Of a stretch of 64,000 nt of DNA, positions 10,730 to 61,248 are shown piece by piece. A program made the position numbers and the translations under genes. A model generated the notes under the pieces. The model had not been told where the DNA came from, ran no database searches, and worked only from the letters and a program-made list of their open reading frames with translations. Each line of letters begins with the position of its first letter. Position 1 is the stretch's first letter. This stretch comes from Olsenella timonensis (lineage in GTDB: Bacteria; Actinomycetota; Coriobacteriia; Coriobacteriales; Atopobiaceae): assembly GCF_900119915.1 (NCBI RefSeq), contig NZ_LT635455.1, forward strand, positions 1,674,001 to 1,738,000, read 5' to 3'.

Positions 10730-10837
10730 GTCCTGAAAATCCAGGCTGTGGCACGACCAAGGCCCATTTTTGCGCCATAGGCTCGATTTTAAGGACGCGG
10801 GGCGAGAAGGACGTGCCACAGCCCCGTTTTTCAGGAC
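10730..10837. repeat. Imperfect long inverted repeat between asnS and pyrE
   Basis: The left arm (10730-10755, GTCCTGAAAA then GGCTGTGGCACG) and right arm (10812-10837) pair over 26 positions with a 4-nt mismatch block in the middle. A 56-nt loop separates the arms. It lies in the divergent promoter region of asnS and pyrE, just upstream of a TAGAAT box (10858-10863). It differs in sequence from the 125-bp elements described elsewhere in this window. A regulatory leader, a decayed insertion end or a cruciform are all possible. Confidence 0.7.
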
Positions 10838-16161: not shown

Positions 16162-16286
16162 CAGTTTTAGGCAGTTTGTCGCCCGTGGGCCAAGTACGAT
16201 TTTGGAGCACAGCCAATCTACCTGCCCGTCTCTTGCCATCCCGACGCCAGCTACTTTGCCACTCCGCCACAAACTGCCTAAAACTG
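16162..16286. repeat. 125-bp inverted repeat element E1 (TAGGCAGTTT family)
   Basis: The ends are perfect 18-bp inverted repeats, CAGTTTTAGGCAGTTTGT at 16162 and its complement ending at 16286. Inside, AAGTA begins 30 nt from the left end (16192) and TACTT ends 30 nt from the right end (16256). The core TCTACCTGC (16217-16225, complement of GCAGGTAGA) begins 55 nt from the left end. The same layout recurs at 17453, 44609 and 61124. It lies between convergent genes, 10 bp after the helicase stop and 8 bp before the stop of the AbiEi-like gene. Confidence 0.9.
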
Positions 16287-16294
16287 CATCTCGC

Positions 16295-17260
16295 CTAGAA
16301 CAGCTTGCGGCCAAAGTCCGTCAGGTGCTCGTAGAGGCTCACCTGAGCCGCAATCTCCTGTGGGGTGAACGTGCGATGCGGGATGCCGAAGCGCTCCTTC
16401 ACCATCCAGATGAAGGTCCTGAACTTCTCGAAGTCGCTGAGCTGCGACCACGTCGCCGACATCGTCTTCACGTCCATCACCTCGAGAACGTTTCTGCGGG
16501 CCTGAGTGTGATCGGCGCGCCACCTTCCCGTGTGAAACTCCTCGCTGTCGTACTCGACGTCGCCGTTGACGGAGGGAAGGTAGATATCCCCGACAAAGAA
16601 GTCGGCTTCCGCGATCACGCGCAGGTGCTCGTCGACGTCGATTCTCTGGTTGACCTGAATCTCCGGAAAGCCCCACCCGCCCAGGCGCGGCGGCAGCACA
16701 AGCGCCAGAACGAGGAGCACCTCCATAGGGGACGCCGCGTTGGGGAGCAGGTAGCGCAACGCGGACCTTGCCTTACGCACGCCATAGGCGCCGCTGGCGG
16801 AATCAAGAAAACGCGCGATGTTCTCGGGCGTGGTCAGAGGAGCTCTCTGCCCCGTGTAGCCACAGCCTTTCTCGTCGATCGAGAACGAGCCGCAGAGGTA
16901 ATAGCCCAACTCCAGTATCTCGATTGGGCTTCGCCCGGCGGCGGCCTGCAGAAAGGTAAACTCCGGAGAGCTCACGTAGTTTGCGCCCGAGAGCTCGCAA
17001 AGCGACCCAGGGGGCAGCCGCCCGCTAAAGAGATGGGTCTTGACCCGCTGAAGGCTGCGCAGGCTCTGCTGATCGGGAACAAGTAGGTGTAGGGGCCTTT
17101 TCTCAGAATAATCAACGGGGAGCAGGGCCTCTCTGAGCTCGCGCATCGATGCGCCCACTTGAGCCACCGTCTTGGCATCAGCGTAGTCGGGGACGCACTC
17201 GTCACCCGTCTTGGTCAACCAGTAGCACAGCGCCGACTCATGGCTCACGATCAAGGACAT
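16295..17260 (-). CDS. AbiEi/DUF559-like protein (putative antitoxin or VSR-type nuclease fold)
   Basis: 321 aa, no membrane segments. The N-terminal half (SHESALCYWL near residue 5, LHLLV, SPEFTFLQAAAG near 97) resembles AbiEi-type proteins, where a similar SPE segment occurs. The C-terminal part (about 165-290, NAASPMEVLLVLALVL then ADFFVGDIYLPS and DVEYDSEEFH) resembles the VSR/DUF559 endonuclease-like domain often joined to AbiEi-like proteins in actinobacteria. Both calls are by motif memory. The ATG at 17260 has GGGAGG 5 nt upstream; a TTG at 17290 is less likely. The gene is bracketed by repeat elements E1 and E2 and its codon use is less GC-biased than its neighbours, suggesting transfer. 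No AbiEii-type toxin gene lies beside it. Confidence 0.7.
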   Translation of the reverse strand: MSLIVSHESALCYWLTKTGDECVPDYADAKTVAQVGASMRELREALLPVDYSEKRPLHLLVPDQQSLRSLQRVKTHLFSGRLPPGSLCELSGANYVSSPEFTFLQAAAGRSPIEILELGYYLCGSFSIDEKGCGYTGQRAPLTTPENIARFLDSASGAYGVRKARSALRYLLPNAASPMEVLLVLALVLPPRLGGWGFPEIQVNQRIDVDEHLRVIAEADFFVGDIYLPSVNGDVEYDSEEFHTGRWRADHTQARRNVLEVMDVKTMSATWSQLSDFEKFRTFIWMVKERFGIPHRTFTPQEIAAQVSLYEHLTDFGRKLF

Positions 17261-17277
17261 GCCCGCCTCCCGGTCCG

Positions 17278-17346
17278 CGTCAGACAGCAAAACGGTACCG
17301 GGGAGACCCGCAGCGTATTTTTCGGCTGTCTGTCAGCTGTCTGACG
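17278..17346 (-). repeat. 11-bp inverted repeat in the leader of the AbiEi-like gene
   Basis: CGTCAGACAGC at 17278-17288 is perfectly complemented by GCTGTCTGACG at 17336-17346. The right arm overlaps a near-tandem repeat of GCTGTCTG (first copy about 17325). The structure begins about 12 nt upstream of the GGGAGG ribosome site, so it could be a leader hairpin or a two-site operator for autoregulation, as known for AbiEi proteins. Regulation is inferred. Confidence 0.6.
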
Positions 17347-17452
17347 GACGAGCTCGAGGCCCAAATCGCACGTGCTGACCACGCAAACTCCATGGAAGGA
17401 GTCCGCGAGAGGCGGCTAATCGCACGCGAGCGACCGGATAGGACAGCAATGC

Positions 17453-17577
17453 CAGATTTAGGTTGTTTTGACTGGTTTGCCTTAGTATCCCCCGTGCCTT
17501 CGACTTCTCTAACTGGAGTTTTGTCTCGCCACACGCCCCCTCTACTCTATGGGTCCCGAATAAACTGCCTAAAACTG
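17453..17577. repeat. 125-bp inverted repeat element E2 (degenerate left arm)
   Basis: The right arm is the intact AAACTGCCTAAAACTG (17562-17577). The left arm CAGATTTAGGTTGTTT (17453-17468) matches the family arm at 13 of 16 positions. Length (125 bp), AGTA 31 nt from the left end, TACT 31 nt from the right end, and a core TCTAACTGG exactly 55 nt in all match element E1 in the same orientation. That agreement shows it is a decayed copy and not chance. It lies in the divergent region between the AbiEi-like gene and helD. Confidence 0.8.
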
Positions 17578-17684: not shown

Positions 17685-19790
17685 ATGCAGGACCAGGACC
17701 CGATCTTTGAAGCCGAGCAGGCGCACCTCACCGAGCTCTACGCCAAGCTGCTCGAGATGCGCGACGACATCTCGGCAGACCTGGAGAGCAACCATCGGGG
17801 CGCCAAGCAGGACCTCATCGACATGAGCGAGGAGGTGCGCCTGGACTTTGGCGGCGCGGACGAGACCATCGAGACGCTCGCCGCCATCGAGACGCTGAAC
17901 TCCGTCATCGACGCCTACAACCAGTACCACGACTTCAACGTGGACAAGCTCCGCCGCGTCATGCTGCTGCTGATGCAGCCGTACTTCGCGAAGGTCACGC
18001 TCGAGATGCGTCCCGGGCGCCCGCCGCGCGACGTCTACATCGGCGCCGCCGGCATGACCGACGAGCACAGCCGCCCGCTCGTGGTGGACTGGCGCTCCCC
18101 CGTGGCGGAGACCTACTACAACCAGGAGATGGGCCGGACCTCCTACCAGGTGGACGGAAAGACGCGCACGGTCAACCTCACGCTGCGCCGGCAGTTCGAC
18201 GTCGTGCGCGACGAGCTGCGCTCCTACTTCGACACCACGGTGGCGATCCAGGACTCGCTGCTGCTCTCCGCCCTCAAGCGGCGCCACACCGAGAAGCTGC
18301 AGGCCATCACCGCCACGATCCAGCGCGAGCAGAACGAGGTCGTGCGTCATGAGGACGTCCCCGTGCTGCTGGTGAACGGCATCGCCGGCTCGGGCAAGAC
18401 GTCCGTGCTGCTGCAGCGAATCGCGTTCCTCCTCTACCAGGAGCGCAAGACCCTCGACCCGAGCCAGGTCTGGCTCTTCTCGCCAAACGACGTCTTCGAG
18501 AGCTACATCGACACGGTCCTCCCCTCCATGGGCGAGTCCAACCCGCAGACCGTGACCTGGCGCGACTTCGTCGCGTCCCAGGGCGCCGGCGAGCGCGACC
18601 CGGGGCTTGCCACCACGCCCGAGACGCTGCGGCGCATGGACGCCGCGGCGCGCTCCCTCTCGCTCGAGGAGGACGACCTGCGCGAGATACGCCTCGACGG
18701 CGAGACGTTGCTCAAGGCGAGCCAGGTGCGCTCCGCCGTGGAGAAGTTCGCGGAGTTTGACGTGGGCCCGCGCTTCACCGCCCTCGTCAAGGAGGAGCTG
18801 CACGACAGGCTGAACCGCCGCCTGGGCCAGATGGCGCGCAACGAGGAGCTCCAGGAGGAGATGCTCGGGCTGGACGTGGAGCGCCAGTACGAGATCTTCG
18901 GGGAGACGCTCTCCCCCGACGACGAGGACGAGACGCTCGCCTACGCGCGACGCTACGTCGAGCACCGCTACGAGGGGGCGCACGAGGAGATCGAGCGCCT
19001 GGCGTGGCTGCGGCTCGACCGCATCGGCATGCGCCTGCTGGGCCAGAGCGCGCTCTCCGCGACCGAGTGGCTCTACCTGCGGCTCATCTTCACGGGCATC
19101 GGGAGCCGCGACGCGCGCTTCGTCATGGTCGACGAGGTCCAGGACTACACCGAGGCGCAGCTCATCGTGCTCGCCCGGTTCTTCTCCCGCGCGCACTTCC
19201 TGCTCCTGGGCGACGAGCACCAGGCGATCTTCGAGGGGACGGCGACCTTCGACCGGATCAGGTCCGTCTTTGCCGCCTCGCACGGCAGCGTGGACGAGTG
19301 CCGCCTGCTTACGAGCTACCGCTCCTCGCCGGAGATCACCGAGCTCTTCTGCGGCCTCCTGGAGCCGGACGAGCGCCGGCGCCTCACCTCGGTGCAGCGC
19401 GCCGGGGTGGCGCCCGTCATCCGCTCCTTCGACGAGAAGGACGCGTACCTCGCGGCCCTGCGCGCCGCCGTGGCGGAGCCCGGCGAGGGCCTCACGGCCG
19501 TCGTGGCCGAGAGCGACGCGCGCGTGAGCTGGCTCGCCAGGCAGCTCGGCGACGCGGCGACGGTGATTCGCGGAGGGGCGTCGCTGCCCGCGGAGGGCGT
19601 CGTGCTGCTGCCGCTGCGCGTGGCCAAGGGGCTGGAGTTCGACCACGTGATCGTGCCGGACGCCCAGGCCGAGGTCTACCCGGACACGCCGCTCGCCCGC
19701 CGGCGCCTCTACACCGCACTCTCGCGCGCCATGCACCGCGTCACCGTGCTCGCGCAGGGGCCGCTCACGCCGATGCTGGCCACACGATAG
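17685..19790 (+). CDS. helD: HelD-like superfamily 1 helicase / RNA polymerase recycling factor
   Basis: 701 aa. An N-terminal charged helical arm (residues 1-70, probable coiled coil) is followed by UvrD/Rep-type ATPase halves with Walker A GIAGSGKTS near residue 233, Walker B VDEVQDYT near 482, LLGDEHQAIFEG, and LPLRVAKGLEFDHVIV near the end. This layout is that of HelD (helicase IV-like), which removes stalled RNA polymerase from DNA using ATP. The paired insertion between the ATPase motifs is present. Start ATG 17685 follows GAAGGAG. RecD/UvrD helicases are the alternative, but the N-terminal arm and WRSPVAETYY favour HelD. Confidence 0.88.
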   Translation: MQDQDPIFEAEQAHLTELYAKLLEMRDDISADLESNHRGAKQDLIDMSEEVRLDFGGADETIETLAAIETLNSVIDAYNQYHDFNVDKLRRVMLLLMQPYFAKVTLEMRPGRPPRDVYIGAAGMTDEHSRPLVVDWRSPVAETYYNQEMGRTSYQVDGKTRTVNLTLRRQFDVVRDELRSYFDTTVAIQDSLLLSALKRRHTEKLQAITATIQREQNEVVRHEDVPVLLVNGIAGSGKTSVLLQRIAFLLYQERKTLDPSQVWLFSPNDVFESYIDTVLPSMGESNPQTVTWRDFVASQGAGERDPGLATTPETLRRMDAAARSLSLEEDDLREIRLDGETLLKASQVRSAVEKFAEFDVGPRFTALVKEELHDRLNRRLGQMARNEELQEEMLGLDVERQYEIFGETLSPDDEDETLAYARRYVEHRYEGAHEEIERLAWLRLDRIGMRLLGQSALSATEWLYLRLIFTGIGSRDARFVMVDEVQDYTEAQLIVLARFFSRAHFLLLGDEHQAIFEGTATFDRIRSVFAASHGSVDECRLLTSYRSSPEITELFCGLLEPDERRRLTSVQRAGVAPVIRSFDEKDAYLAALRAAVAEPGEGLTAVVAESDARVSWLARQLGDAATVIRGGASLPAEGVVLLPLRVAKGLEFDHVIVPDAQAEVYPDTPLARRRLYTALSRAMHRVTVLAQGPLTPMLATR

Positions 19791-22227: not shown

Positions 22228-22304
22228 CGCGAGGGGCCGAGGGGTCGAGGGCCCTTATCGCCCTTCTCGCCCCCTCGCCCTTCTCGCCCTTCTCGCCGCG
22301 CCCG

Positions 22305-24175: not shown

Positions 24176-25957
24176 GTGGCCGAGAAGCGCGTGGAGCGGG
24201 AGCTCGACACCCTGGTGCGCCTGTCGCACGTGAGCCTCGTCTACGAGGGGGACTCCGGAGCGGGAGGCGTGACCGCGCTCGACGACGTCTCGCTCGAGCT
24301 CGCGCGCGGCGAGCGGCTCTGCGTGCTCGGCGCCAACGGCTCGGGAAAGTCCACGCTGGCCTCCGTGATCTGCGGCCTGCTCGCGCCCGACGACGGCACG
24401 GTCGAGCTCGTGGGCGAGCGCGTGTGCGTGGACGGGCGGAGCGACCTCGAGGCGTACCGGCGCGCGCGGCGCTCGCTCGGGCTGGTCTTCCAGAACCCGG
24501 ACGACCAGATCGTCACGAGCGTCGTGGAGGACGACGTGGCCTTCGGGCCGGAGAACCTCGGCCTCCCGCGCGAGGAGATCGCCGCGCGCGTCGCCCGCGA
24601 GCTGCACCGCGTTGCGATGGAGGGCCACGCGCTGGCGGACCCATCGCGCCTGTCGGGCGGCCAGCGCCAGCGGGTGTGCATCGCCGGGGCGCTTGCCATG
24701 GAGCCCGCGGTGCTCGTCCTGGACGAGCCGGGGTCGCTCCTGGACGTGCGCGGGCGCTCGGCGATCCTGCGCGTGATGGGCCGGCTCGCCAAGGCGGGGA
24801 CCACGCTCGTCCACGTGACGCACTTCATGGAGGAGGCGCTCGGCGCCGACCGCGTTATCGTGCTCGACCACGGGCGCGTGACGCTGGAGGGGACGCCGGA
24901 GGAGGTCTTCTCGCAGGGCGACAGGCTCGCGGGACTGGGGCTCGAGGCGCCGTTCGCCGCGCGCCTCTCCCTGCGGCTGGGGCTTCCGTGGACCTGCGAC
25001 GAGCGGGTCCTTCTCGACGAGATCGCCGCCGGGGCGCCCTCGGCGCCCGCGCCTCGCCGACCCGCGGGCACCGCCGCCCCGGGCGGGGAGACGCTCGCCG
25101 CCGTCGAGCACGTGACGTTCTCGTACGGGCGCGGTGCCGCCGCGCTCGACGACGTGTCCCTCGAGATAGCCTCCGGCACCTCGACGGCGATCGTCGGCCA
25201 GACGGGCTCGGGCAAGTCGACCCTGCTGCGCCTGCTCTGCGGCCTGGAGGCTCCCGACAGGGGCCGCGTCGTCGTGGGCGGCCACGACACCTCGACGCGC
25301 CGTGGCCGCCGCGGCGCGCAGCGGCTCGTCGGATACGTGATGCAGCGCCCCGAGCGGCAGCTCTTCGCCGAGACGGTCGAGAAGGACGTGGCGTTCGGCC
25401 CGCGCAACCTCCGCCTCCCCGCGGACGAGGTCGAGCGGCGCGTGGGGCGCGCCCTGCGGCTCGTGGGCCTCGAGGGCCGCCGCGACGTCTCCCCGTTCAA
25501 GCTCTCGGGGGGGCAGCGCCGCCTCTGCGCACTCGCCGGCGTCCTCGCGATGGAGCCGCGCGTCCTCGTTCTGGACGAGCCGACCGCCGGGCTGGACCCG
25601 CGCGGCCGCGCGATGCTGCGCCGCGTGCTCGGGCGCCTGCGCGAGGCCGGCGTCATGCTCGTCCAGGTCACGCACAGCATGGAGGACGCCGCGCGCGCCG
25701 ACCGCGTGGTCGTCCTCGACGAGTCGCGCCTCGTCGCAGACGGCACTCCCGCAGAGGTCTTCTCGGCGGAGGGCGAGCAGCGCCTCGTCGAGGGCGGCCT
25801 CGGCATCCCGCGGGCCCTGCGCGTGGCGCGCGAGCTGGAGCGTCGCGGCTGGCCCCCGCTCGGCGACCCCCTCACCACCGACGAGCTCGTCGCCGCGCTC
25901 CAAAATGGGTCAAAAGGGGACTGTCCCCTTTTGACCGACCGAGGGGGCGACCGCTGA
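24176..25957 (+). CDS. ecfA: ECF transporter double ATPase (EcfA1-EcfA2 fusion)
   Basis: 593 aa carrying two complete ABC ATPase domains in one chain. Domain 1 (about 14-250) has GANGSGKST, LSGGQRQR and VLVLDEPGSLLD. Domain 2 (about 300-540) has GQTGSGKST, LSGGQRRL and VLVLDEPTAGLD. It powers riboflavin uptake with RibU and EcfT; the usual separate EcfA and EcfA' subunits are fused, as in YkoD-type proteins. The start is GTG 24176, 6 nt after ribU. The last ~16 residues include GSKGDCPLLT, encoded by a REP palindrome, so the C-terminus has been extended by a repeat insertion. Confidence 0.92.
   Translation: MAEKRVERELDTLVRLSHVSLVYEGDSGAGGVTALDDVSLELARGERLCVLGANGSGKSTLASVICGLLAPDDGTVELVGERVCVDGRSDLEAYRRARRSLGLVFQNPDDQIVTSVVEDDVAFGPENLGLPREEIAARVARELHRVAMEGHALADPSRLSGGQRQRVCIAGALAMEPAVLVLDEPGSLLDVRGRSAILRVMGRLAKAGTTLVHVTHFMEEALGADRVIVLDHGRVTLEGTPEEVFSQGDRLAGLGLEAPFAARLSLRLGLPWTCDERVLLDEIAAGAPSAPAPRRPAGTAAPGGETLAAVEHVTFSYGRGAAALDDVSLEIASGTSTAIVGQTGSGKSTLLRLLCGLEAPDRGRVVVGGHDTSTRRGRRGAQRLVGYVMQRPERQLFAETVEKDVAFGPRNLRLPADEVERRVGRALRLVGLEGRRDVSPFKLSGGQRRLCALAGVLAMEPRVLVLDEPTAGLDPRGRAMLRRVLGRLREAGVMLVQVTHSMEDAARADRVVVLDESRLVADGTPAEVFSAEGEQRLVEGGLGIPRALRVARELERRGWPPLGDPLTTDELVAALQNGSKGDCPLLTDRGGDR
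25908..25936. repeat. REP palindrome inside the 3' end of ecfA
   Basis: A 29-bp perfect odd palindrome: GGTCAAAAGGGGAC, a central T, and its complement. It is read in frame as part of the ECF ATPase tail (GSKGDCPLLT). It belongs to the same family as the palindromes at 52229, 53663, 55647, 56534 and 59705. Confidence 0.9.
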
Positions 25958-44608: not shown

Positions 44609-44731
44609 CAGTTTTAGGCAGTTTGATGGCGACCGGCAAAGTAGCGAAGGTTTTTTCGTCACGCAGCCGCAGGTAGAAGCGTTGCGATTGTATGGCTACT
44701 CGGCCCGACCCTTCAAAACTGCCTAAAACTG
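44609..44731. repeat. 123-bp inverted repeat element E3 (TAGGCAGTTT family)
   Basis: CAGTTTTAGGCAGTTT (44609-44624) and its exact complement (44716-44731) form the ends. AAGTA begins 30 nt in from the left (44639), TACT lies 31 nt from the right end (44697-44700), and the core GCAGGTAGA (44669-44677) ends 54 nt from the right end. The inner AGTAGC/GCTACT can also pair. It lies between the co-oriented prs and pth genes, 38 bp before the pth start, so it would be transcribed if the genes are cotranscribed. Orientation is opposite to E1 and E2. Confidence 0.9.
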
Positions 44732-52213: not shown

Positions 52214-52228
52214 CTATCCTTTCCATGA

Positions 52229-52255
52229 GTCAAAAGGGGACAGTCCCCTTTTGAC
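52229..52255. repeat. REP palindrome between groS and groL
   Basis: A 27-bp perfect odd palindrome: GTCAAAAGGGGAC, central A, and complement. It occupies most of the gap between groS and groL and would form a hairpin in the bicistronic mRNA, which could alter relative expression of the two chaperonins. Confidence 0.9.
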
Positions 52256-52268
52256 CTGTTTGCCCAAG

Positions 52269-52780: not shown

Positions 52781-53665
52781 GTGAAGATCCGTTCCACCCG
52801 AACCGCCCACGTTGTTCTCGTCTGCGCGTGCGCCCTCGCGCTCGCGGCATGCGGGCGCGAGGAGCTTCCCACAGGCGCCGCGTCCCCTGAGGCGGGGGAT
52901 GCCGCGGGCGGCGGCGTCGAGGGGGCGGAAACGGGCGAGTTCGTGAGCACTGCGATGGTCGTCACGTTTGGCGACGGCGAGATGCTCTTCGTGGATCAGG
53001 AAACCGGGGCCCCCTACTACCCCACCCTGCCGGAGGGCGCACCCGAGCTCGCAGCTGGCAACATCGTGCGCGTGACCGGCAACGGCATCATGCTGGAGAG
53101 CTACCCCGCGCAGTACCCGGGAATCACGGACGTTGAGGTGATCGAGGAGGGAACGCCCGCGGACGCCGAGAAGTACGACGAGCTGGTGACGCAGATCTGG
53201 CAGCCCAAAGATCCGTCCGAGCCGCCGCTGGCCTCGCTCGAGTACACGGCGGAGCTGGCCGCAACGTCCGTCATGCTCGGATCGTACGGCTACACGTGGA
53301 GCTACGAGGAGAACGGCTCGGAGCAGACCGTAACCTCGGACGCACCGCACCCCACCCAGCTGGAGGCAGCCGAGCTTTCCGACGCGCGCGTGGACGGCCC
53401 CACCGAGGTCACCGTGACTTTTGACGTGCCCTGCACGGCGGCGGGCATCGTTCGCTGGCCCGAGGACGAGCTCGAAGCGGCGGCGGAGGCAGCGGGGTCT
53501 GCCCAGGCGGTCGAGATCGGCAGCGTCGAGGGAGACGCCTGGACCGTCGACGACCGCAAGATCGTGGATGGCAACGTCGTCTTCACCGTGGAGCCGGGCT
53601 GGCGCTACGCCGTCGAGGCCTACTTCGACTGCGGCGAGGCCGTCTACGCCTTCACCGTGCGATGA
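52781..53665 (+). CDS. Putative lipoprotein, unknown function
   Basis: 294 aa. Lipoprotein signal with lipobox LAAC, a Gly/Ala/Glu-rich linker (about 25-50), then a beta-rich domain (about 55-125, VVTFGDGEMLFVDQETGAPY and NIVRVTGNGIMLES) similar to secreted DUF3221-type domains. A second domain follows with two cysteines (VPC and FDC). The start is GTG 52781 with CGGAGGA upstream. The stop codon TGA lies inside a REP palindrome. Substrate or role unknown. Confidence 0.8.
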   Translation: MKIRSTRTAHVVLVCACALALAACGREELPTGAASPEAGDAAGGGVEGAETGEFVSTAMVVTFGDGEMLFVDQETGAPYYPTLPEGAPELAAGNIVRVTGNGIMLESYPAQYPGITDVEVIEEGTPADAEKYDELVTQIWQPKDPSEPPLASLEYTAELAATSVMLGSYGYTWSYEENGSEQTVTSDAPHPTQLEAAELSDARVDGPTEVTVTFDVPCTAAGIVRWPEDELEAAAEAAGSAQAVEIGSVEGDAWTVDDRKIVDGNVVFTVEPGWRYAVEAYFDCGEAVYAFTVR

Positions 53666-53695
53666 TCCAAAAGGGGTCTGTCCCCTTTTGGATCA
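53663..53695. repeat. REP palindrome shared by two convergent stop codons
   Basis: A 33-bp palindrome: 14-bp arms TGATCCAAAAGGGG and complement around TCTGT. Its first TGA (53663-53665) is the stop codon of the lipoprotein gene and its last TCA (53693-53695) is, on the minus strand, the stop codon of nadE. One palindrome thus ends both genes and can serve as a bidirectional terminator. Confidence 0.93.
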
Positions 53696-55633
53696 CAGCG
53701 CCTCGAGCTCGGCGAGCCAGAGCGTCGAGCAGGCGTCCGACGGCATGCGCAGGTCGCCGCGCGGGCTCACGGCAGCCGATCCCACCTTGGGGCCGTCAGG
53801 CAGGCAGCTGCGCTTGAACTGCTGGGCAAAGTAGCGGCGATAGAAGACCTTGATCCAGGAGAGGATCGTGGTGTCGTCGTACTTCTCGCCCAGGGCATAG
53901 CGGGCGAGACGGTAGACCTTGGACGGGTTGGTGCCGCGGCGCAGGACCTCGTAGAGGAAGAAGTCGTGGAGCTCGTAGGGACCCACAAGGTCCTCGGTCT
54001 TCTGGGCGATCTTGCCATCCCCCGTGGCGGGCAGGAGCTCCGGCGAGACCGGCGTGTCCAAAACGTCGAGAAGAACCTCGGACTCCGCAGCGTCTCCGCA
54101 GGTGTCCGCCACGTAGCGCACGAGGTGGCGCACCAGCGTCTTGGGCACGCTCGCGTTGACGGCGTACATGGACATGTGGTCGCCGTTGTAGGTGGCCCAG
54201 CCGAGCGCCAGCTCGGAGAGGTCGCCGGTGCCGATCACGAGGCCGCCCTCCTGGTTGGCCACGTCCATGAGGATCTGCGTGCGCTCGCGCGCCTGGGAGT
54301 TCTCGTAGGTGACGTCGTGGACGGACTCGTCGTGGCCGATGTCGGAGAAGTGCTGGCGCACCGAGGCGGCGATGTCGATCTCGCGCAGCTCGGCGCCCAC
54401 GGTACAGGCGAGCTCGCAAGCATTGTTGTAGGTGCGGTCCGTGGTGCCGAAGCCGGGCATGGTCACCGCGATGACGCCGTCGCGCGGAAGTCCCAGCAGG
54501 TCGAAGGCACGCACGGTCACGAGCAGGGCGAGCGTGGAATCCAAGCCGCCCGAGAGGCCGATGACCGCACGGCGCGAGTGCGTGTGCGCGAGGCGCTTGG
54601 CGAGGCCGTGCGCCTGGATGGCAATGACGTCCTCACAGCGCTCCGCACGACGGGCGGGGTCGGACGGCACAAAGGGATGCGGGTCCACCCAGCGCGTGAG
54701 CGGGATCTCGCGGGAGACGGCATCCGCGCCCAGCGAGAAGGGCACGCTCACGTAGCCCATCTCCTCGGCCGCGGTCGCGCACTCGAAGGTGGACATGCGC
54801 GTGCGCTCGGCCGCGAGGAAGCGAACGTCCACCTCAGAGACGGCGCGACCGCCGCCGAAGGGCTTGCCCTCCGCGAGTAGACGACCATTCTCGGCCACGA
54901 GGTCGTGTCCGGAGAAGACGAGGTCCTGCGTGGACTCGCCGGTGCCGGCGCTGGCGTAGACGTAGCCGCAGAGCAGGCGCGCGCTCTGGCCGGTGACAAG
55001 GGCGCGGCGATAGTCGGCCTTGCCCACGAGCGCGTTGGACGCGCTGAGGTTGCAGATCAGTGTGGCGCCCGCCTGCGCGTGAGCAATCGAGGGCGGCGCA
55101 GCGACCCAGAGGTCCTCACATATTTCCGCCGCGACCACAAGTTCGGGAAGCTCCAGGCACGAGAAGAGCAGGTTGGTGCCAAAGAGCACGTCCTTCTCGC
55201 CGCCCACGGAGGCGGTGACGGGATCGACCGGGCCGGGGACAAAGTGGCGCCCCTCATAAAACTCGTTGTAGGTGGGGATGTGGGTCTTGGGGACGACGCC
55301 GAGGATGGCACCGTGCGAGACGAACGCGGCGCAGTTGTAGAGCTTGCCATTGGCGCGCACGGGCACGCCCGCGAGCAGCAAGGCGTCGAGGTCCGCCGTG
55401 CGGGCCGCAAAGTCTGCAAGACCGGCATCGGCGGCACGAATGAGCGCGTCCTGCCAGAAGAGGTCCTCGCAGGTGTAGCCCGTGAGCGCAAGCTCGGGAA
55501 GGACGATGACGGCGGCGCCGTCCTTCTCGGCCGCCTCACGCGCCGCGGCCACACAGGCCTCCACGTTGAAGGCCACGTCCGCAACGCGAACCTCCGGCGT
55601 CACCGCCGCGACCTTGACGAACCCGTCCCTCAT
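53693..55633 (-). CDS. nadE: Glutamine-dependent NAD+ synthetase
   Basis: 646 aa. The N-terminal nitrilase/glutaminase domain (about 1-280: LPELALTGYTCEDL, KTHIPTYNEFYEGR, and AEICEDLWVAAPP with catalytic Cys near 170) is fused to the C-terminal ATP pyrophosphatase domain with P-loop GLSGGLDSTLAL near residue 357. It makes NAD+ from deamido-NAD+ using glutamine as nitrogen donor. ATG 55633 follows GGGAGG; an earlier in-frame ATG at 55654 lies next to a REP. The stop codon is part of a REP. Confidence 0.96.
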   Translation of the reverse strand: MRDGFVKVAAVTPEVRVADVAFNVEACVAAAREAAEKDGAAVIVLPELALTGYTCEDLFWQDALIRAADAGLADFAARTADLDALLLAGVPVRANGKLYNCAAFVSHGAILGVVPKTHIPTYNEFYEGRHFVPGPVDPVTASVGGEKDVLFGTNLLFSCLELPELVVAAEICEDLWVAAPPSIAHAQAGATLICNLSASNALVGKADYRRALVTGQSARLLCGYVYASAGTGESTQDLVFSGHDLVAENGRLLAEGKPFGGGRAVSEVDVRFLAAERTRMSTFECATAAEEMGYVSVPFSLGADAVSREIPLTRWVDPHPFVPSDPARRAERCEDVIAIQAHGLAKRLAHTHSRRAVIGLSGGLDSTLALLVTVRAFDLLGLPRDGVIAVTMPGFGTTDRTYNNACELACTVGAELREIDIAASVRQHFSDIGHDESVHDVTYENSQARERTQILMDVANQEGGLVIGTGDLSELALGWATYNGDHMSMYAVNASVPKTLVRHLVRYVADTCGDAAESEVLLDVLDTPVSPELLPATGDGKIAQKTEDLVGPYELHDFFLYEVLRRGTNPSKVYRLARYALGEKYDDTTILSWIKVFYRRYFAQQFKRSCLPDGPKVGSAAVSPRGDLRMPSDACSTLWLAELEAL

Positions 55634-55646
55634 CCCAACCTCCCTA

Positions 55647-55679
55647 TGATCCAAAAGGGGACAGACCCCTTTTGGATCA
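55647..55679. repeat. REP palindrome downstream of the transposase gene
   Basis: 33 bp: TGATCCAAAAGGGG arms around ACAGA, the reverse of the TCTGT centre at 53663 and 56534. Its last TCA is the stop codon of the RAYT gene. With the REP at 56534 it forms inverted ends around the transposase gene. Confidence 0.93.
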
Positions 55680-56453
55680 CTCTGCTTGATCGACCCTCAT
55701 TCTTCTCAGTTTATTTGTTACGCGCGAAATTGTGCAGGTTCCAATTCCAGTCAGTCGCTCGATTTGCTTAACGGACAGGCCGACGTCCCGAAGATCTAAA
55801 AGTCTCTGGTCGCGCTCCGCCTTGGGGAGCGCCTTCACCTCATGGGCAGGCAGCTCGCCCAGGGCAAGGCGCGCAACATCGCCCATCTCGTCCTCGGGAA
55901 CCCGAGCGCGGCGATCAAAGCGGTATGTACGCCTCTGCTCGGGCTGGCTGTAGGCAGCAAACCCTTCGGCTCCGCCAAGCATGTCCAAGACAAGGGATGT
56001 ATTGGCAATCTCCGAGGATCCCACGTACTCGCGGTAGCTGCTCCATGGGTACTCTGCCGCCGGGCAAATCCCGGCGTTTTCCGGATTGTCGTGGACGTAA
56101 CGGATGGCCTGGAGCAGGTATGCCTCGTTCTCGATCGGGCAGCTTTTGAACCGGTTTTCAAAGACGTGGCCCACCCTCCCCGACTTACGGTTGAATCGCT
56201 GCGCGTAGCCGCCGGAGAGTCTCTGCATCATCTCGCTCAGCGCCTGCGCCGGGTCCTCCAGCACAAGGTGCACGTGGTTCTCCATAAGGCACCACGCCAG
56301 AACGTGGATTCCGGCGTCTTCCGCCCTCTTTACAAGGAGCTCGAGAAAAGCACGGCGATCGGCATCGTCCTCAAAGATTATCTGCCTACCGTTTCCGCGC
56401 AGAATCACGTGGTAGAAGCCCGACTCAGCAGTTGCCCTTGGCGCTCGCGGCAT
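55677..56453 (-). CDS. REP-associated tyrosine transposase (RAYT, Y1_Tnp)
   Basis: 258 aa. HUH single-strand endonuclease fold: the metal/HUH motif is MENHVHLVLE (H-x-H), with GFYHVILRGNGRQ at the N-terminus and RVGHVFENRFKS, NEAYLLQAIRYVHDNPENAG after it; the nucleophilic tyrosine is expected in the latter region. A C-terminal helix-turn-helix (VGLSVKQIERLTGIGTCTIS) is attached. RAYTs are single-copy relatives of IS200/IS605 transposases that spread REP palindromes. ATG 56453 follows GGGGAGGGGG. The gene is flanked by inverted REPs and its stop codon is in one. Confidence 0.93.
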   Translation of the reverse strand: MPRAPRATAESGFYHVILRGNGRQIIFEDDADRRAFLELLVKRAEDAGIHVLAWCLMENHVHLVLEDPAQALSEMMQRLSGGYAQRFNRKSGRVGHVFENRFKSCPIENEAYLLQAIRYVHDNPENAGICPAAEYPWSSYREYVGSSEIANTSLVLDMLGGAEGFAAYSQPEQRRTYRFDRRARVPEDEMGDVARLALGELPAHEVKALPKAERDQRLLDLRDVGLSVKQIERLTGIGTCTISRVTNKLRRMRVDQAE

Positions 56454-56533
56454 AAAGACCCCCTCCCCTAGGTGAAGGCTCTCATACCCGGAGAAGGGGG
56501 GCCACTTTCAGACAGGTTAAGGCAGACGAAAAA

Positions 56534-56566
56534 TGATCCAAAAGGGGTCTGTCCCCTTTTGAATCA
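56534..56566. repeat. REP palindrome upstream of the transposase gene
   Basis: 33 bp with TGATCCAAAAGGGG and centre TCTGT; the right arm has one mismatch (GAATCA for GGATCA). Its TCA end (56564-56566) is the stop codon of the ABC transporter ATPase gene. It lies 80 bp upstream of the RAYT start. Confidence 0.92.
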
Positions 56567-57334
56567 CCCCTCGAGGTAGCGGGCGAGGAACTCGCGGGTG
56601 CGCGGGTGCTCCGGCGCGGAGAAGATCTTGGAGGGCGCGCCCTTCTCGGCGATGACGCCCTTGTCCATGAAGACGACCTCGTCGGAGACGTTCTTGGCGA
56701 AGGCCATCTCGTGCGTGACCACGACCATCGTCATGCCCTCCGCCGCAAGCCGGCGCATGACCTCGAGGACCTCGCCCACGATCTCCGGGTCGAGCGCCGA
56801 GGTGGGCTCGTCGAAGAGCATGAGGTCGGGCTGCATGCACAGGGCGCGCGCGATGGCGACGCGCTGCTTCTGGCCGCCGGAGAGGTTGTTGACGTCCGCG
56901 CGCGCGAAGTCCGCGAGGCCCACCGCGTCGAGATGCCCGAGCGCCACGCGCTCCGCCTCGGCCTTGCCCATCTTCTTGAGCGTCACGGGCGCGAGCGTGC
57001 AGTTGTCGAGCACGTTCATGTTGTTGAACAGGTTGAAGCCCTGGAAGACCATGCCGATCTTCTCGCGCAGGCGGTTCACGTCGACGTGCTCGGCGGCGAG
57101 GTCCGCCCCGTGGAACCACACGTGCCCGGCGTCGGGCGTCTCGAGCAGGTTGATGCAGCGCAGCAGCGTGGACTTGCCCGACCCGGAGGCGCCGATGATC
57201 GTGACCACCTGGCCGGGCATGACGTCGAGGTTGATGTCGCGCAGGACCTCGAGGTCGCCGAAGGACTTGCGCAGCCCCTCGATGCGGACCATCGGCTCGG
57301 AGGAGCCCGCGGCGCGGGCGTTGTTCTCTGTCAT
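56564..57334 (-). CDS. Polar amino-acid ABC transporter ATPase
   Basis: 256 aa. Walker [14 protein letters not shown]-loop [31 protein letters not shown], and Walker [15 protein letters not shown]; the VFQ-NLF-NM segment is typical of glutamine/arginine/cystine uptake ATPases. Together with the permease (4 nt upstream) and binding protein it forms an importer. ATG 57334 follows GGAGGGG. Stop codon lies in a REP. Confidence 0.95.
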
Positions 57335-59524: not shown

Positions 59525-59704
59525 GGTGGTTCCTTTCCCTTTTGTGGTAATCCCCTTCCGCGCGACGCAACCGGAGGGGACCCATTCCCCTCCCCCTTGC
59601 AAGCGGGCGCACCCGATGCGAGAAAGTTACGCGCACGTCGGCAGGATACAACGGGGCGAGAGGAACCGCTAGCTGATACCATGCTGAGAAACACCGCCGT
59701 AACG

Positions 59705-59775
59705 GGTCAATTGGGGACAGTCCCCTTTTGACCCACGAGGCCAATGGGTCAAAAGGGGACTGTCCCCAATTGACC
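59705..59775. repeat. Paired inverted REPs (BIME-like) upstream of the desulfidase gene
   Basis: Two REPs face each other with a short spacer. The first (59705-59733) has arms GGTCAATTGGGGAC and GTCCCCTTTTGACC; the second (59747-59775) is its exact reverse complement. Each palindrome is internally imperfect (AATT versus TTTT), but the two copies pair perfectly with each other over 29 bp. The pair ends 15 bp before the start codon and would be in the 5' leader. Confidence 0.92.
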
Positions 59776-59790
59776 TCCAGGGAGGGTCGC

Positions 59791-61123: not shown

Positions 61124-61248
61124 CAGTTTTAGGCAGTTTATTCCGGAGCATGCGAGTATCGAAGCCCGCTTGGATCATAAAACTGCAGGTAGATAAGTCA
61201 CGAGAAATGTAGCTACTTAGCCTCTCTCGTGAAAACTGCCTAAAACTG
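61124..61248. repeat. 125-bp inverted repeat element E4 (TAGGCAGTTT family)
   Basis: CAGTTTTAGGCAGTTT (61124-61139) and its exact complement (61233-61248) form the ends. AGTA lies 31 nt in from the left (61155), TACTT ends 30 nt from the right end (61218), and the core GCAGGTAGA (61185-61193) ends 55 nt from the right end. Orientation is the same as E3 and opposite to E1 and E2. An extra ATAAAACTGCAG inside resembles part of an arm. It lies between the convergent desulfidase and tsa genes. Confidence 0.9.

Follow-up and report, generated by a model that had tools for sequence, protein, structure and literature searches.

A predicted AbiEi-nuclease fusion gene of Olsenella is linked to dispersed palindromic elements, probably in a REP/RAYT-like partnership

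The origin, persistence, and partner proteins of dispersed bacterial palindromes are a long-open question, known mainly from REP/RAYT systems. In these systems, according to the available text of two studies, a gene is flanked by its own palindromic repeats, the repeats are dispersed and fall into many classes, repeat abundance depends on the cognate gene, and protein and repeat co-evolve (PMC2817692, PMC3686654). The window analyzed here, a stretch of 64,000 nucleotides from Olsenella timonensis, raises the same question for a gene of another kind, which lies between two copies of a 125-bp palindromic element (Table 1). A preliminary description of this DNA proposed that gene and elements might form a cassette and, by analogy with REPs and RAYTs, that the protein could recognize the elements or have spread them. 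What, then, ties this protein to these elements, and does the gene itself move?

Table 1. Coordinates of the gene, its leader, and the palindromic elements in the window
Feature	Position	Strand	Basis or remark
GTCCTGAAAATCG-type element, different from E1-E4	10730-10837	.	putative cognate is a distant paralog elsewhere in the genome
E1, intact 125-bp palindromic element, 3' of the gene	16162-16286	.	both 16-bp ends intact
E1 core, CTACCTGC (GCAGGTAG on the minus strand)	16218-16225	-	sequence, core statistics
Gene for predicted AbiEi-domain/EDxHD-Vsr-like nuclease, locus-1 member, 321 aa	16295-17260	-	ORF, ortholog alignments, AF2 model, VIA-align
Leader, 192 bp, start codon to E2	17261-17452	-	sequence
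E2, 125 bp, 5' of the gene, right end intact, left end decayed (17453-17468)	17453-17577	.	orthologous copy in G028
E3, dispersed, between prs-like and pth-like genes, after a terminator-like hairpin	44609-44731	.	genes named by eye
E4, dispersed, between two convergent genes	61124-61248	.	motif search

E1 and E2 do bracket the gene, one as an intact and one as a decayed copy, the left end of E2 (CAGATTTAGGTTGTTT) having three mismatches to CAGTTTTAGGCAGTTT. They share one orientation, as judged by their core (degenerate in E2), and because E3 and E4 are the window's only other copies of this type, no other two copies lie so close together. With up to three mismatches, the 16-bp end AGTTTTAGGCAGTTTG was matched seven times in the window against 0.03 expected, and seven matches were reached in 0 of 100 shuffles. 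The whole 2.18-Mb genome (G000) holds nine E1-type elements (E1-E4, A, B, C, H, and a variant, V), all 123-126 bp long and, by our own ORF caller, all intergenic, with convergent, codirectional, and divergent settings all represented. Their information lies in the ends (1.1-2 bits per position), compared with only 0.03-0.54 bits at positions 38-57, and AAGTA is conserved at positions 31-35. About 12 elements of the GTCCTGAAAATCG type are also present in G000; the paralog taken as cognate to the one in the window lies at 17754-18857 of the genome contig.

The gene differs from its surroundings in base composition, as first described, with a GC of 0.614 against 0.686 for the window and a GC3 of 0.80 against 0.96 for both flanking helicase genes (DEAD/DUF3516 and UvrD-like, by Pfam in the window). 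The ORF list gives it an earlier TTG start, and an inverted repeat is visible in its leader at ~17325-17345. Searches of Pfam and PADLOC with the window protein gave no match, solved structures gave none by sequence, and NCBIfam gave no relevant match for its relatives. In Pfam, none of 18 family members scored above the cut-off (PF18741 appeared in two, best E 0.013), and among four paralogs, the hits were likewise below it (PF18741 in two, E 0.0073 and 0.016; DUF559 in one, E 0.086). The AF2 model of the window protein (pLDDT 87.6, pTM 0.88, 23 sequences) returned nothing from the PDB with Foldseek at E <= 0.001 and, at the same cut-off, a phage DUF559 protein as the single match from BFVD. 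The two domains were resolved solely by a second look with VIA-align, for which a Z of ~8 or lower may reflect merely a common arrangement: residues 1-172 matched AbiEi (6y8q; Z 8.1, rmsd 3.6, 119 aligned) and Rv2827c (Z 5.3), and residues 177-293 matched the catalytic domain of I-Bth0305I (3r3p; Z 10.2, rmsd 2.3, 96 of 97 residues), with NGO0050 (Z 9.9) and Vsr (Z 7.2) also matching the C-terminal half.

Within this C-terminal half, E180, D225, and E236 are invariant in 23/23 orthologs and 7/7 aligned family members (four of them paralogs), and H243 is kept in 22/23 and 7/7, respectively; these are residues that we take, from general knowledge rather than superposition, to be equivalents of the I-Bth0305I/Vsr catalytic residues. 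An HUH-like triplet was found in only 2/23 orthologs, at unrelated positions. The window protein is therefore predicted, from the fold comparison of its model, to be an AbiEi-like domain fused to a nuclease resembling Vsr and the EDxHD homing endonucleases, which bears out the AbiEi and Vsr/DUF559-like assignment made from the translation. The N-terminal, putatively DNA-reading half is somewhat less conserved than the nuclease half (0.51 versus 0.57; 217 of 253 pairs).

When one genome for each of 84,980 species was scanned, relatives of the gene turned up at 23 loci, and every record involved bears the name Olsenella, Thermophilibacter, Atopobium, or Atopobiaceae. At 22 of these loci, an inverted-repeat element lay within 260 bp 3' of the gene, compared with 23 of 511 control windows, so that orthologs are as a rule bordered by elements; at the sole exception (L083), the element is 5'. 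The orthologs occupy two positions. At locus 1, elements stand on both sides of the gene in 8/10 loci (L080 counted by eye), and the upstream element ends 175-197 bp before the gene in eight orthologs. At locus 2, the element is on the 3' side only (13/13). The end motif varies by locus (e.g., CAGTTTTAGGCAGTTT, CCGTTTCTAGGTGTTTTTT, TTGTGTGCAGTTTTT, and CATCGAGTCTGTAGTTTTT), and several second-locus elements (e.g., L089 and L094) repeat the end motif, by eye, as inverted copies further inside; AAGTA in E1-E4 looks like a remnant of such copies. At the level of sequence, the link between protein and elements is real.

The gene belongs to a wider family, represented in 44 of the 60 genomes that were sampled across the order and in 26 of 37 genera, with 6-18 family matches per genome within the genus. 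In a bracket test of 69 genus loci, 23 were dropped when the motif filter missed the gene core and one for short flanks; 19 of the 45 kept loci passed, two of them being repeats of the same gene, which leaves 17/43 distinct loci whose 5' and 3' flanks share an element at a level exceeding the 99th percentile for mismatched pairs, a null inflated by related loci. Among loci from other genera, the figure was 7/25. The distant paralogs of the window genome occupy seven places (L104-L110), which by eye have elements on both sides in three cases, on the 3' side only in one, and none in three. Two of these copies, L109 and L110, have the same translation, and no bracketing element is visible at either. 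As part of the overall reading set out below, and with the same probability, we favor a family of many members, each dedicated to its own set of palindromic elements of ~100-140 bp.

If each protein has its own elements, element and gene types should occur together, and the preliminary description had indeed predicted that copy number would follow the gene. Exact AGTTTTAGGCAGTTT arms were counted in 31 genomes of the genus, with 12 in G000, 13 in G028, 5 in G003, 1 in G004, and 0 in the other 27; G000 and G003 carry the gene (100 and 89%), and G028 carries a remnant between two elements. With up to two mismatches, TCGAGTCTGTANTTTTT was found in exactly 5/31 genomes, the same five that have a gene of that type. 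These five genes are 88-98% identical to one another, the next relative (66%) having another motif, and in G000 and G014, TCGAGTCTGTANTTTTT is a single copy beside the gene. The paralog motif GTCCTGAAAATCG was found exactly, in at least two copies, in 6/31 genomes, including all five with a paralog of at least 69%. The prediction held in general: multicopy elements occur mostly with a cognate gene or its remnant, but G010 has GTCCTGAAAATCG copies and no close gene (its assembly is in 210 contigs and 90% complete), G009 has seven TTGTGTGCGG-type elements (nine arms) and yet its own gene carries TTGTCAGCAG, and five genomes without the gene (G004, G025, G027, G030, and G007) have single elements, which look like relics. 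Because the genomes are related, the co-occurrence is given without a p-value.

The remnant in G028 (L129) is a gene copy from which two internal stretches are missing, most of the nuclease core among them, while both flanking elements are kept; an artifact of assembly may account for the gene loss there. GTCCTGAAAATCG-type copies form the ends of several G028 contigs.

The ends of the elements follow the gene not only between genomes but also at fixed sites. A search for TTGTRKGCAGWTTT, with one mismatch, in 16 genomes found each genome's own variant near fixation, with TATGCAG in 14/16 arms of G006, AGGCAG in 13/15 of G012, and GTGC[AG]G in 15/17 of G022; own-variant arms were 11/11 in G010 and 9/9 in G009. 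The 70 dispersed elements collected include six intergenic sites, each matched by both its flanks, at which the end motif differs between species. At the gus/tmk site, for example, G000 and G028 differ in end motif from G012, and at a site common to G010, G022, and G030, the last has the motif of the other protein group. At an rplL-rpoB-like site (by eye, with an L7/L12-like flank), the element type varies with the species, and G030 has none. The ends at orthologous sites are mostly the motif of the species' own gene, and at some of the six sites, homology persists in the interiors although the two ends are different.

For 18 same-site pairs with different motifs, the interiors of seven exceeded the 99th percentile of a null of 3,888 other comparisons that still contained at least one same-site pair: four of the 13 pairs matched on both flanks and three of the five matched on one flank or via a third genome. 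The remaining 11 pairs had no interior homology above the null, and independent insertion may therefore have occurred at those sites. Between G000 and G028, seven orthologous elements differed at 7/307 motif positions (defined on G000) versus 49/566 spacer positions (p 1.3e-4), and 55/840 positions differed in their flanks. The ends and AAGTA evolve slower than the spacers, and the motifs are constrained. Linkage, cognate co-occurrence, and co-evolution together speak for the REP/RAYT-like tie of protein type to elements that was first proposed by analogy.

Individual elements showed further rearrangements. In G003 (L080:4970-5096), E1 has an interior inverted relative to that in G000 and G028, with unchanged flanks (interior similarity of 0.74 inverted versus 0.53 direct). 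An invertible element was considered and rejected, as 28/37 same-site dispersed pairs keep their orientation, with eight unclear and one doubtful, next to this one inversion of E1 between G000 and G003. At one site in G009 and G010, a hybrid element (L234, L257) has a left end of the GTTGGGTACTTTTTT type and a right end of the TTGTGTGCGG type. In addition, L223 (G006) and L216 (G022) have an identical interior, a flank ~95% identical on one side, and mixed ends, a likeness that reflects either recent exchange or contamination.

Common to the element types is a short core near the middle. In 49/71 elements (orthologous copies included), GCAG[GC]T is found no more than 10 bp from the midpoint, compared with 1/142 control windows and 2.1% of shuffles, and the exact core is absent from the other 22. 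When each dispersed site is counted a single time, 27/38 have the core in one or more members, and by eye, the same core is present in elements of distant paralogs and other genera (L271, L281, and L282). Because this core recurs across element types and genera, the ends are private and the core common. Placed with our own ORF caller, the 39 distinct dispersed sites comprise 14 codirectional, 12 convergent, 7 divergent, and 6 unplaced (proportions without a genome-wide baseline); per copy, orthologous copies included, the settings are 28, 19, 9, and 14 of 70, respectively. Since 12 of the 33 distinct classifiable sites lie between convergent genes, a promoter-operator role, raised at the outset and still possible, seems ill-suited to the elements.

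The best reading, which we consider probable though by no means secure, is a partnership of the REP/RAYT kind in which the enzyme is an unrelated nuclease. It would accommodate the linkage, the gene-tracking end motifs, the conserved sites, the shared core, the constraint, and the catalytic-type residues; binding, cutting, and mobility are what we infer from them. Under this reading, (i) the AbiEi-type N-terminal domain would bind, as a multimer, the species-specific ends together with the inner AAGTA or the inner inverted copies; (ii) the nuclease domains would thereby be placed at the core GCAG(G/C)T and would nick or cut there; and (iii) repair after the nick or cut would maintain, and rarely spread or re-template, the elements between genes. 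The element copies beside the gene may mark or autoregulate it. The gene itself would be stationary, and RAYT genes are likewise mostly single-copy and stationary.

A protein multimer on a 125-bp palindrome would fit what has been described for both putative parts, as the available text of the sources states that AbiEi binds two 23-bp inverted repeats and Rv2827c four within 131 bp (PMC7319586) and that I-Bth0305I dimerizes on a target of nearly 60 bp (PMC3943268). Counting against the partnership, the G028 elements have been kept despite a gene copy without the nuclease core. The G009 and G010 exceptions, the low copy numbers, the figure of 7/25 outside the genus, the 22 elements without an exact core, the 11 same-site pairs with interiors not above the null, and the failure to find a target-site duplication (by eye) or a precise empty site weigh in the same direction. 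The many old elements at fixed sites fit a host function as well as mobility. A more specific form of this reading is possible and falls short of probable. It holds that a hydrolytic EDxHD-type nuclease, of no known transposase or recombinase class, makes and keeps dispersed palindromic repeats via the shared core; that swappable AbiEi-type domains with matching ends form several private networks per genome; and that, when the specificity shifts, both ends are rewritten while the sites and some interiors persist.

Because the copies at fixed sites are old and no target duplication was seen, the main rival is a regulon-like or architectural role; we regard it as unlikely, though well ahead of the other alternatives. 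The protein would then be a multi-site DNA-binding factor (an autoregulator, or a nucleoid or transcription organizer), the elements would be vertically inherited, drifting targets, and the nuclease would be inactive or minor. Conserved sites, the concerted change of both ends, and motifs under constraint would all be expected of such targets, as would the element upstream of eight locus-1 genes, and AbiEi-type proteins bind inverted repeats and autoregulate, as stated in the available text of PMC7319586. However, the elements lie in all three gene settings, convergent ones included, and the catalytic-type residues are near-invariant. The presence or absence of elements at given sites also differs between relatives, and the G028 contigs end in GTCCTGAAAATCG copies, as near-identical recent copies would cause.

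Could the elements instead act as RNA? Structured RNAs (an attenuator, a processing site, or a guide) bound or cut by the protein would be consistent with arms that pair perfectly or nearly so in the G000 elements, with the position of A, H, and E3 just downstream of terminator-like hairpins (by eye), and with the mitoribosomal proteins that match the C-terminal half at Z 7-9. We nevertheless consider this improbable: the elements occur in all gene orientations, their spacers are largely free, AbiEi-type domains bind DNA, as the available text of PMC7319586 has it, and Rfam gave no match for the elements, on which ground a known RNA family was rejected.

Next in order, and slightly more doubtful still, is a selfish homing cassette in which the gene and its two elements travel as a unit. 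The bracketing, the EDxHD-like fold, and the absence of the whole segment from G014 would suit it. However, all 23 named ortholog loci lie at two syntenic positions only, 10 adjoining the DEAD/DUF3516 helicase and 13 one methyltransferase-like gene (neighbors by eye), and such a gene is missing next to many dispersed elements. The hopping cassette was therefore rejected, and the mobile cassette of the preliminary description was not borne out. The same description looked to precise excision of 16162-17577 in related strains; G014 lacks the segment, but the neighboring bases are missing too, and the absence therefore reads as loss rather than precise excision.

The elements, as distinct from the gene, do differ in presence between relatives. 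At the E3 site, G028 has the element, and five genomes (G005, G006, G008, G014, and G022) are element-free, with a single match across the joined flanks (aligned for G006, G008, G014, and G022); E4 is absent from the corresponding site in G028 and G003. No precise empty site was found among the matches listed for eight E1-type and 14 GTCCTGAAAATCG-type sites; the element-free relatives are too diverged between genes for the element ends to be fixed there. By eye, none of nine G000 copies has a target-site duplication, nor does any closely matching empty site show clean ends. MITEs that belong to an unrelated DDE or HUH transposase, with an incidental tie to the gene, would share the terminal inverted repeats, the intergenic location, and the presence/absence at sites, and are the least probable of the alternatives given the motif-gene co-occurrence and co-evolution, the 22/23 linkage, and the lack of any target-site duplication seen.

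Set beside known systems, the putative partnership resembles REP/RAYT in the palindromes that flank the gene at locus 1, their dispersal, classes each tied to their own protein, and co-evolution, with repeat abundance depending on the cognate gene except in G009 and G010. It differs in the enzyme, which here is AbiEi-like plus EDxHD/Vsr-like with no conserved HUH motif, and in the elements, which are ~125-bp composites with a shared core and reach only 1 to about 13 copies of a type in any genome (nine of the E1 type in G000), compared with >100 copies per genome for REP. With the type IV toxin-antitoxin AbiE, the window protein shares the N-terminal fold of AbiEi and Rv2827c and the (here putative) long targets with multiple inverted repeats; unlike AbiE, it is fused to a nuclease-like domain, its putative targets are dispersed over the genome, and no AbiEii (DUF1814) toxin adjoins it in the window, the neighbors at other loci having been judged by eye. 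A toxin-antitoxin pair was rejected, with no toxin gene adjoining in the window by Pfam.

The C-terminal catalytic fold of the predicted model is like that of the EDxHD enzyme I-Bth0305I and of Vsr. Unlike the genes of EDxHD homing endonucleases, this gene does not interrupt its putative target, complete elements stand both beside it and at gene-free sites, and many chromosomal targets persist. In size, terminal inverted repeats, and location between genes, the elements are like MITEs and ERIC-type palindromic elements, from which they differ in that no target-site duplication was seen, the ends are kept while the spacers randomize, and a partner gene is identified. Among the matches listed for the open PMC set, whose scope leaves out most subscription journals and preprints, none describes the pairing.

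If the favored reading is true, a second, unrelated enzyme family would have the REP/RAYT habit, an independent solution to the same problem. With several specificities per genome, many species, and conserved sites, the system would offer natural swap experiments, and a predicted target sequence and action site for each protein would make direct tests possible. It may also account for part of the intergenic repeat content in an order of common gut bacteria.

Other repeats are also present in the window. Another short palindrome, approximately TCAAAAGGGGACTGTCCCCTTTTGACC, has seven copies (25904-25947, 52224-52267, 53661-53704, 55645-55688, 56532-56575, 59701-59744, and 59743-59786). The word GGCGAGAAG, expected 1.5 times, is present 26 times (e.g., at 22263-22297) and adjoins elements of several types.
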